DNA from: Pseudotabrizicola sp.
GTDB lineage: Bacteria > Pseudomonadota > Alphaproteobacteria > Rhodobacterales > Rhodobacteraceae
Assembly (NCBI RefSeq): GCF_030684215.1
Contig: NZ_JAUXOV010000021.1
Location: forward strand, 1 to 64,000
Reading direction: 5' to 3'
DNA length: 64,000 nucleotides
Both the position numbers and the translations under genes were made by a program. Shown here piece by piece: positions 39,199-41,419 of the stretch. Every line of letters begins with the position of its first letter. Within the stretch, counting starts at the first letter, position 1. Below the pieces are notes generated by a model. That model was not told the origin of the DNA. It saw only the letters and a list, made by a program, of their open reading frames with translations, and made no database searches.

Positions 39199-39558
39199 TC
39201 AGGCTGCCGAAGCGTCTTTGAACTTGATCGACTCGCCACAACCGCAGGCCTCGGACACGTTGGGATTACGGAATTTGAACCCGGCGTGCAGCAAATCCAC
39301 CTCGTAATCGATCTCGGTGCCGATCAAGAACATCTGCGCCATCGGTGCGATCATCACCCGTGCGCCGTCCTGTTCCACGATCTCGTCCAGCGGATTGACC
39401 TCGGACACATAATCCATGGTGTATTCCATCCCCGCACAGCCGCCCTTTTTCACACCGATGCGCAAGCCTTGACGGCCATCTTTTTCCATCAGCCGGGCAA
39501 TCTGCCGGACGGCAAGGGGGGTCAGGGTGACGGCGGCTTTGCCGGGGATGCCAAACAT
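39199..39558 (-). CDS. sufA: A-type iron-sulfur carrier (HesB/IscA/SufA family)
   Basis: A 119-residue protein with the three invariant cysteines of A-type carriers: Cys41 (GGCAGMEY) and the pair Cys105/Cys107 (ACGCGES). AGGAG precedes the ATG at 39558. It delivers Fe-S clusters to apoproteins. sufT lies about 1.5 kb upstream in the same direction with a DUF3307/SatD-like pair between them. Confidence 0.92.
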   Translation of the reverse strand: MFGIPGKAAVTLTPLAVRQIARLMEKDGRQGLRIGVKKGGCAGMEYTMDYVSEVNPLDEIVEQDGARVMIAPMAQMFLIGTEIDYEVDLLHAGFKFRNPNVSEACGCGESIKFKDASAA

Positions 39559-39584: not shown

Positions 39585-40328
39585 CTAGGGTGAAAGGTCG
39601 GGAATTCCAAGCGGTGGCAGTGCGGAAAGCAGCATTACTGTGCCGATCGCCATCAGCATCGCCCAACCAAAGGACGCGAGGGTGCCGATGATGACATATT
39701 CCGACAGCCGCGACTCTTCCTTGACCGCGCCAAAGCGCAGCACCGATTTGGCCGCGATCAGAAAGCCGATGCCGCCCGGTTCTCCGGCAAGGATCAAAAG
39801 AAAGATGATCCCACGCTCCAGCATCCCGATGATGCGGCCCCCACCCGGCAGGCCATCCAGACCCACCTCTCCCCAAGGCCGCATCAGCAGGCCAAGGGCA
39901 AAGCCACCGGCCCGTGTGGCCAGCACCGCCCCCGCCATGAGCGCCACGGCGGCAGGCAGCCAGAGCGGCGCATGTGCGGCCCAAAGGCCATTCGCCCACA
40001 TCTGCGGCCACAGGCCCGCAACCAGCAGCAGCGTGACCAGATGTGCCACCTGATCGGCGACAAACCCCGCGATGCCGGACAGGCGCGCGCTTAACCCCAC
40101 CTTGGCCGCGTCGATCACCAGATGCGCCAGCGTCAGCCCCGCCACAACCCACGCAGCCTCAGCGGTCTGCACGCCAAGCAACACCGCCGTCACCGCGCCC
40201 ACAATCCCGACATGCGCCAGCATCCAGCCCGGATGCCCCGCGGCCTTGGCCTGCGCCATGCGACCCGGTTGCAGCACGAAATCGGCCAGCACATGTGCCA
40301 ACAACAGCAGGGCAAGGGTTTCAGCCAT
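39585..40328 (-). CDS. DUF3307 integral membrane protein
   Basis: A protein of about 247 residues with six to seven spans, beginning MAETLALLLLAHVLADFVLQ, the DUF3307 signature (hydrophobic helix with HxxADF..Q). A conserved second motif includes HLVIDAAKVGL. The C-terminal half carries ERGIIFLLILAGEPGGIGFL and YVIIGTLASFGWAM. It overlaps the SatD-like gene by eight bases, which fits the DUF3307-SatD pairs seen in other bacteria. Function unknown. Confidence 0.8.
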   Translation of the reverse strand: MAETLALLLLAHVLADFVLQPGRMAQAKAAGHPGWMLAHVGIVGAVTAVLLGVQTAEAAWVVAGLTLAHLVIDAAKVGLSARLSGIAGFVADQVAHLVTLLLVAGLWPQMWANGLWAAHAPLWLPAAVALMAGAVLATRAGGFALGLLMRPWGEVGLDGLPGGGRIIGMLERGIIFLLILAGEPGGIGFLIAAKSVLRFGAVKEESRLSEYVIIGTLASFGWAMLMAIGTVMLLSALPPLGIPDLSP

Positions 40329-40953
40329 GGGAAGCCTCTGCGGTGAAATGGGTGGCAAAGGCGCGGATCGCCTGTTCGATCAGGGCAAACCCCGCCGCGT
40401 TCAGCCGTGCGGCAAAGGCCTGACGCGAAATGCCAAGCATGTCGGCAAGTGCCTGTTGCGGCACATCAAGTCCGGGCGTCAATGTCCACGCCACCGCTTC
40501 GGCCTGTTGCGGCGACCATCCTTGAACCTGAGCATCAAGACTGGCCATCAGCGCGTGGTGCAACGGATCAAACACGGCCCCCGCAAGCGCCAGACGCCGC
40601 CCACCCGTCATCGCGTCAAGCGCCCGGCCAGAGGCCACAAAGGCCCCGCCACCAGCACTGGCAAGCGTAGGCTCTGCCAGACCCTGCGCATCACCAATGC
40701 CCAGCGCAATGCGGCTGGCCAATCCTTCGTCCTGGATCAGTCGGGCGGCAATGTAGATCATGGCACCAAGCCCCCGCCCCGCCGCGCCCACATAAACCTG
40801 CCAGCCATCGCCGCGATAGCGGTGAAAGCGGGCTTCATCGCTGAACCGGTGCGCCGCTGCCTCGATCAACGCCATGGTGTCATCCACCTGCGCAGGCGTG
40901 CCGCGGGTGGAGTGGATCAGATCGCCGGTCAGGACTGCGTGCAATTGGGCCAT
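40321..40953 (-). CDS. SatD-like protein with C-terminal helix-turn-helix
   Basis: A 210-residue protein starting LHAVLTGDLIHSTRG, the SatD signature. RFHRYRGDGWQVYVGAAGRG is characteristic of the family's core, and the C-terminus holds a helix-turn-helix (VPQQALADMLGISRQAFAAR). The upstream frame to 41043 crosses the repeats and is rejected. No ribosome binding site is visible; instead a 7-bp hairpin (GCAAGCC/GGCTTGC) lies directly before the ATG. The gene is probably autoregulated through three tandem palindromes immediately upstream. SatD biochemistry is not established. Confidence 0.72.
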   Translation of the reverse strand: MAQLHAVLTGDLIHSTRGTPAQVDDTMALIEAAAHRFSDEARFHRYRGDGWQVYVGAAGRGLGAMIYIAARLIQDEGLASRIALGIGDAQGLAEPTLASAGGGAFVASGRALDAMTGGRRLALAGAVFDPLHHALMASLDAQVQGWSPQQAEAVAWTLTPGLDVPQQALADMLGISRQAFAARLNAAGFALIEQAIRAFATHFTAEASHG

Positions 40954-40956
40954 AGC

Positions 40957-41043
40957 GCAAGCCGTAAGGCTTGCATTTAAAAATTGCAAGTCAAATGGCC
41001 TGCAAATGAAAAATGCAAGCCAAAAGGTTTGCATCAATGACAC
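40957..41043 (-). promoter_or_regulatory. Three palindromic operators at exact 29-bp spacing
   Basis: Three related inverted repeats are centred at 40965.5, 40994.5 and 41023.5. The first is GCAAGCCGTAAGGCTTGC, perfect over 18 bases. The others keep GCAAGYC-NNNN-GGYYTGC with one or two changes. Each is also one 29-bp tandem unit. They stop four bases before the SatD-like start codon and extend to the end of sufT. This looks like a multi-site operator for the HTH protein encoded next. Confidence 0.75.
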
Positions 41044-41059: not shown

Positions 41060-41419
41060 TTACATAAAGCCCAGTTCCAGCCGGGCCTCGTCGCTCATCA
41101 TCTCCATCCCCCACGGCGGATCAAAGGTCATCTGCACATCCACCTGCTTGACGCCCGCCAGCGGCTCTACCGCATCGGCAACCCAGCCCGGCATCTCGCC
41201 CGCGACGGGACATCCGGGGGCTGTCAGGGTCATGGTGATGTTGACTGCGTTTTCGGTATCAATCTCTACGGTATAGATCAGCCCCAGATCAAAGATATTC
41301 ACCGGGATTTCCGGGTCAAACACCGTGCGGCAGGCATCGACCACGCTGTCATACAAAGGATGATCGGTGCTGGAGGGCTTGATAAGCGGGGTGCCCTCGA
41401 TCTGTGCTTCGCTGTTCAT
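41060..41419 (-). CDS. sufT: SUF-system Fe-S assembly protein (MIP18/DUF59 family)
   Basis: A 119-residue protein whose second half is the DUF59 domain (TVFDPEIPVNIFDLGLIY, MTLTAPGCPVAGEMP with its conserved Cys). It supports Fe-S cluster maturation with SufA. The start at 41419 gives the usual short N-terminus; a longer frame reaches 41497. In related genomes it is usually next to sufA, from which it is here separated by two genes. Confidence 0.87.
   Translation of the reverse strand: MNSEAQIEGTPLIKPSSTDHPLYDSVVDACRTVFDPEIPVNIFDLGLIYTVEIDTENAVNITMTLTAPGCPVAGEMPGWVADAVEPLAGVKQVDVQMTFDPPWGMEMMSDEARLELGFM

Follow-up and report, generated by a model that had tools for sequence, protein, structure and literature searches.

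In class III nucleotidyl cyclases the two conserved aspartates bind metal, and in the Pycsar system a cyclase works together with a membrane effector. Toxin-antitoxin operons of the relBE type are autoregulated. The SatD family (Pfam PF16264) owes its name to the sat operon of Streptococcus mutans. In the literature passages available to us SatD appears as an acid-tolerance or DNA-binding protein, and these passages contain neither operators nor a fold; the excerpt on S. suis, for instance, lists satD as a DNA-binding protein (PMC12005413). The locus studied here lies in a 64,000-nt stretch of DNA, hereafter the window, and consists of a SatD-like gene (product P0001) and a DUF3307 membrane protein gene (product P0002) behind three palindromes. 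It resembles relBE-type operons in placing a putative repressor gene first, with an overlapping partner gene and with operators over the predicted promoter, but the partner here is a polytopic membrane protein, and both the fold and the operator pitch are different. As in Pycsar, a cyclase-like protein stands beside a membrane protein, with an HTH and an operator array in addition at the present locus. With the SatD family it shares the GD...GDEF/GDGW motifs, the operon with a membrane protein and a full-length profile match, whereas P0001 itself falls below Pfam detection. We think it quite likely that the locus is an autorepressing operon of a SatD-like protein and a membrane module, controlled through phased operators and a leaderless promoter and coupled to both nucleotide and membrane. 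Its genes and palindromes are the following:

40321..40953, minus strand: SatD-like gene, 210 aa (P0001), with the ATG start at 40953 taken from relatives
39585..40328, minus strand: DUF3307 membrane protein gene, 247 aa (P0002), from a PF11750 match and an AlphaFold2 model
41060-41419: sufT-like PF01883 gene of the upstream flank (Pfam)
39220-39558: HesB/SufA-like PF01521 gene of the downstream flank (Pfam)
40957..40974, unstranded: operator 1, GCAAGCC-N4-GGCTTGC, closest to the start codon, from the sequence
40986..41003, unstranded: operator 2, palindrome, from the sequence
41015..41032, unstranded: operator 3, palindrome, from the sequence

We take the PF01883 and PF01521 flanks to be sufT-like and SufA-like, respectively. 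The SatD-like and DUF3307 genes, both on the minus strand, overlap, as the original prediction had it, and the overlap measures 8 nt. That prediction had also recognized the SatD-like reading frame but opened it at GTG 41043; the start conserved among relatives is ATG 40953, and with this correction the array falls outside the SatD-like gene. The three palindromes, with start-to-start distances of 29 and 29 bp, are located between the stop of the upstream gene and ATG 40953, in agreement with the exact 29-bp spacing first described. At this locus (L012), the upstream region was shuffled 50 times with its dinucleotides preserved, and the observed pair score was never reached. Within the window the score of 22/24 is reached by 18 placements and exceeded by none; four of these are the present array in different registers, and 14 fall outside it, several of them sampling the same G+C-rich runs in different registers. 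A pair score this high thus also occurs elsewhere in the window, and the array is distinguished by its place and its conservation. Among genomic sites with at most two mismatches to the palindrome, no second array was found. At up to three mismatches, the genome holds 54 matches compared with 13 for a reversed control pattern, so that scattered single sites may also be targets. By eye, the arrays of two close relatives (L011 and L013) are longer and include additional palindromes in partial decay, which suggests gain and loss of copies.

In a first scan, 48 palindrome pairs were found at lag 29, compared with about 2 per lag and a maximum of 9 in shuffled sequences. A strict pair test was then applied, in which two palindromes sharing 6-nt arms were allowed any spacing from 18 to 50 and each locus was shuffled 50 times. 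A significant pair (matched or beaten by no more than one of the 50 shuffles) is present in 43 of the 54 loci of the window's family, and the spacing in these is 29 bp in 35 loci, 30 bp in 6 and 28 bp in 2. Five other loci (L013, L017, L039, L047 and L050) peak at 28-29 bp below significance, L053 has a nonsignificant peak at 25 bp, and L042, L043, L045, L056 and L063 (5/54) give no sign of an array in this test. Most arrays contain two (20/49) or three (18/49) copies, and the motif letters differ among loci (GCAAGC, TCAAGC, GCAACC, GAAAGC and others). A wider set comprised 15 loci found via the partner, on plasmids and in genomes of the phylum. Ten of them have a pair at ≤5/100 shuffles, each at 28 or 29 bp, and no array was detectable in L093, L094, L100, L103 and L104; the haloarchaeon Haloplanus, a member of this set, shows a spacing of 29 bp. 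The same spacing, with a pair score of 24/24, is found in another haloarchaeon, Natronosalvus. Five further plasmid loci, three of them near-duplicates, have 28 or 29 bp (one at 6/100 shuffles), as do the loci found via the C-terminal module of the partner (4/4 at 28-29 bp). In a further set from a different order outside the window's class, 18 of 119 genomes matched and 12 loci were new; with the same test parameters all 12 show 28-29 bp, 11 at ≤1/100 shuffles and one at 6/100. No array was found upstream of any of 12 DUF3307 genes without SatD, four of which stand, by eye, behind a sufT-like gene. The 28-30-bp phase is constant between lineages while the motif letters change. Palindromes had been expected before other such pairs and are indeed missing only in a minority (5/54 and 5/15); what recurs from the predicted motif is its phase, its letters varying by lineage.

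The part of the SatD-like protein that would contact the array is delimited as follows:

40330..40512, minus strand: HTH region, residues 148-208, from AlphaFold2 secondary structure and covariation
40423-40425, minus strand: Arg177, first residue of the predicted recognition helix 177-186, from AlphaFold2

Of the 197 columns in the alignment, that of residue 177 is the most informative about the operator's outermost base (corrected mutual information 0.51, against 0.27 for the runner-up). In 38 loci Arg177 is paired with a G, and in 11 a Pro, Thr, Ala, Lys or Gln is paired with T/A, an agreement of 49/49 that was reached after two hand reassignments (48/49 before). On a tree of residues 1-150, with the HTH left out, residue 177 and the operator base each change four times. 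The independent switches form three (or four) pairs, all concordant (P = 0.25, sign test), and with so few switches this test cannot reach significance. Gln occupies position 177 in all five array-less loci of the window's family, and L035 has Gln yet retains an array, with A as the outer base. This covariation is strong but correlative. Because residue 177 tracks the outermost operator base, it is very probably the SatD-like HTH that reads the array.

The palindromes closest to the gene also appear to contain a promoter:

40984..40989, minus strand: predicted -35 hexamer TTGCAA, right arm of operator 2, from position-wise comparison of 48-49 loci
40961..40966, minus strand: predicted -10 hexamer TACGGC, centre of operator 1, 17-bp spacer, from the same kind of comparison
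40953, minus strand: predicted transcription start, the A of ATG, 7 nt from the end of the -10

We compared 49 last and 48 penultimate palindrome copies position by position. TA occurs at the copy centre in 32/49 last versus 5/48 penultimate copies (P about 2×10−8), TAT in 22/49 versus 0/48 (P about 2×10−8), and the right arm reads TTGNNT in 32/48 penultimate versus 15/49 last copies. The spacer between the two hexamers is 17 bp in 38, 18 bp in 7 and 16 bp in 3 of 48 loci, a range of 16-18 bp that is no independent evidence, since hexamers placed at fixed offsets inherit the spacing of the operators. The distance from the end of the -10 to the start codon is 6-7 nt in 28/48 loci and 3-8 nt in 39/48; in the remaining nine it is 15-52 nt, and three of these nine (L036, L049 and L050) show, by eye, a purine-rich segment just upstream of the coding sequence. 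In the genome studied here the -10 is weak, and a strict consensus scan of the locus returned no promoter; in many relatives the -10 is TATNAC-like. With a distance of 6-7 nt, transcription would begin at the A of the ATG. By eye, the stretch upstream of 40953 contains no Shine-Dalgarno sequence, as the original prediction had noted for the ribosome binding site, and a leaderless mRNA, as predicted here, would explain why. Leaderless mRNAs do occur in Alphaproteobacteria, 171 leaderless starts being given for Sinorhizobium meliloti in the part of that study available to us (PMC3616915).

The AlphaFold2 model of P0001 has a pLDDT of 96. In a structure comparison of this predicted fold, residues 1-147 match cyclases, GGDEF domains and GTP cyclohydrolase III, and the N-terminal domain, as modelled, is a class III cyclase/GGDEF-like palm:

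40570..40953, minus strand: palm domain, about residues 1-128, with Asp11 (TGDxxxST) and Asp49 (RGDGWQ), from fold search and alignment

P0001 differs from these three groups in that its palm is fused to an HTH. The family profile matches the adenylyl cyclase Ma1120 (E = 0.003) with Asp11 and Asp49 aligned, and both residues are invariant in 54/54 and 21/21 (75/75) aligned proteins. From the cyclase-like fold and the invariant aspartate pair, a metal-nucleotide is a likely ligand of the palm domain. Of the catalytic set of class III cyclases, the aspartate pair is the part recognized here as invariant. The Pfam SatD model has no match to P0001 at E = 1, and only one of 54 relatives matches it at E ≤0.01 (E = 0.004). 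The P0001-family profile nevertheless matches the SatD of haloarchaeal locus L096 over 190 columns (probability 96.5, E = 8.9×10−10), itself a true PF16264 member (E = 8.5×10−32), and it matches the SatD of L128 at E = 1.1×10−10. By profile comparison P0001 is a remote SatD relative with full-length homology to a bona fide PF16264 member; the earlier label of a SatD-like HTH protein is borne out at this remote level, but not by Pfam.

P0002 matches PF11750 over residues 5-105 (E = 2.7×10−19, 69.9 bits, cut-off 23), and its AlphaFold2 model has a pLDDT of 93.9; a fold search with this protein gave no match. It also matches phrog_2470, a phage membrane-protein family. Its second conserved part recurs beside SatD:

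39633..39857, minus strand: C-terminal membrane module, residues about 158-232 (IGxLER, AAKSxLRF, EYVIIGTLAS)

In a survey of 30 DUF3307 loci out of 37 matches, a SatD-like neighbour accompanies 18 of the 22 long forms (≥227 aa) and none of the 8 short ones, and the four unpaired long proteins have, by eye, altered AAKSxxR and EYVIIG motifs. Short DUF3307 proteins without SatD occur in other genomes (L120-L127). In the window's family, L112, L115, L116 and L118 carry a long DUF3307 gene behind sufT without SatD and without palindromes, and their C-terminal motifs are altered. The Natronosalvus partner is a 149-aa protein with the C-terminal module alone, L146-L148 again have, by eye, a module protein without the DUF3307 part 3' of the SatD-like gene, and the module lies downstream of SatD in 11 of the 12 new loci of the other order, the contig of the twelfth ending first. 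From these loci we conclude, by sequence comparison, that the module is the constant companion of SatD and the Pfam DUF3307 domain an optional addition. The SatD-DUF3307 pairing originally noticed does recur, with the difference that its constant unit is the module rather than the DUF3307 domain.

Within the window's family, 52 of 248 genomes contain a match to P0001, to which three named Pseudotabrizicola loci are added, and the nearest named relatives are Pseudotabrizicola (Rhodobacterales). In line with the predicted recurrence of the pair, the DUF3307 gene is directly downstream in 54/55 loci by tblastn, and the remaining one, L014, shows its start by eye. A sufT-like gene lies ≤210 nt upstream in 50/55 loci and a HesB-like gene ≤100 nt downstream in 51/55. 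In a class-wide sample, 17/385 genomes match the P0001-family profile, a figure that does not bound the spread because partner-led searches found remoter SatD-like genes in the class. Three of these matches, all in the window's family, are near full length; the other 14 are partial, 11 of them within the first ~100 residues. On a plasmid of Sphingomonas insulae (L093), a SatD/DUF3307 pair is located near an annotated Pycsar effector, a cyclase, a TIR domain and an HTH + ImmA/IrrE protein, a setting like that of a defence island.

Three other explanations have to be considered. The first, in which the SatD-like protein works as a nucleotidyl cyclase and makes a messenger for its membrane partner, as in Pycsar, with DNA binding only setting the protein's level, would fit the class III cyclase/GGDEF fold, the Ma1120 match, the invariant aspartate pair and the plasmid pair adjoining an annotated Pycsar effector and cyclase. 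However, position 110, the candidate transition-state arginine in a provisional register, is R in only 37/54 and 12/21 proteins, and none of five proteins matched PADLOC at E = 0.1, whichever Pycsar models that library may hold, and we regard an active cyclase as unlikely. Still less probable is that the palindromes act as RNA, read-through from the sufT-like gene forming nested hairpins that attenuate transcription or mask the start codon. The 130-nt array RNA folds well (-46.7 kcal/mol, z = -4.0), and a run of five T follows the middle palindrome, which has a terminator-like score; read-through transcripts might thus be attenuated. Against an RNA role, palindrome mismatches are not biased to G-U (29 G-U versus 43 A-C, 113 sites), the operator letters covary with a DNA-recognition helix, the 28-30-bp phase is found in archaea too, and the last copy has -10-like letters. 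The original suggestion that a hairpin at the start codon adds translational control is not upheld, the predicted transcript beginning at the ATG and G-U mismatches not being preferred, although read-through RNA from the upstream gene could still fold.

The cassette is flanked by iron-sulphur assembly genes, both sides kept in 50-51 of 55 loci, and a different regulator, such as a global or an Fe-S one, might thus recognize the array. This we hold to be very improbable: the arrays accompany SatD onto plasmids and into other genomes, the sufT-linked DUF3307 genes without SatD (L112, L115, L116 and L118) have none, and the operator letters track the SatD-like HTH. Autorepression by the cytosolic partner, as originally proposed, is probably correct and well supported by the phase, the covariation, the promoter-like letters in the operators and the lack of arrays at the 12 SatD-less loci.

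In the autorepression model, the C-terminal HTH of the SatD-like protein would bind the palindromes, as the covariation implies, and dimers would sit side by side on them at the fixed 28-30-bp pitch; since archaea have the same pitch, presumably the protein, and not the promoter, imposes it. The two gene-proximal palindromes of the window's family enclose the -35/-10-like elements, and the protein, once bound there, would keep RNA polymerase out. The unbound promoter would yield a leaderless mRNA from the ATG, and this one mRNA would encode the SatD-like protein and the membrane protein bearing the C-terminal module. Judging from fold and residues, the palm domain most likely binds a metal-nucleotide that tunes DNA affinity. 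In the least certain step, the membrane module most likely binds SatD, coupling membrane state to derepression, and may be harmful when over-made.

The original observation is real, wider than first reported and partly reinterpreted. In the portion available to us of a Tn-seq study of S. pyogenes, satD scores as essential under the conditions and in the strains examined there, although only 178/249 genomes carry it (PMC11323703). By analogy, a gene whose product represses a harmful neighbour would be expected to give this essential-yet-accessory pattern. We tentatively put forward, as a possibility on the doubtful side, that SatD proteins are cross-domain nucleotide-responsive repressors, whose palm, once that of a cyclase or polymerase, drives cooperative, helically phased assembly on 28-30-bp arrays and so restrains a small membrane effector, the AAKSxxR module, which is harmful when free. 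Release by the nucleotide would then make the system a switch for stress or defence. If true, this would explain why satD in S. pyogenes is reported as essential where carried and missing from other strains, and would offer a testable reason for an essential accessory gene: a repressor is needed only where its target is present. It is unusual for an operator pitch to stay at 28-30 bp in bacteria and archaea alike despite changing letters, and this makes cooperative assembly a measurable prediction. The Pfam DUF3307 domain is now separated from the module that truly accompanies SatD, and a family whose name comes from an acid-tolerance operon, and which the literature found does not otherwise explain, gains a likely function, DNA target and fold.
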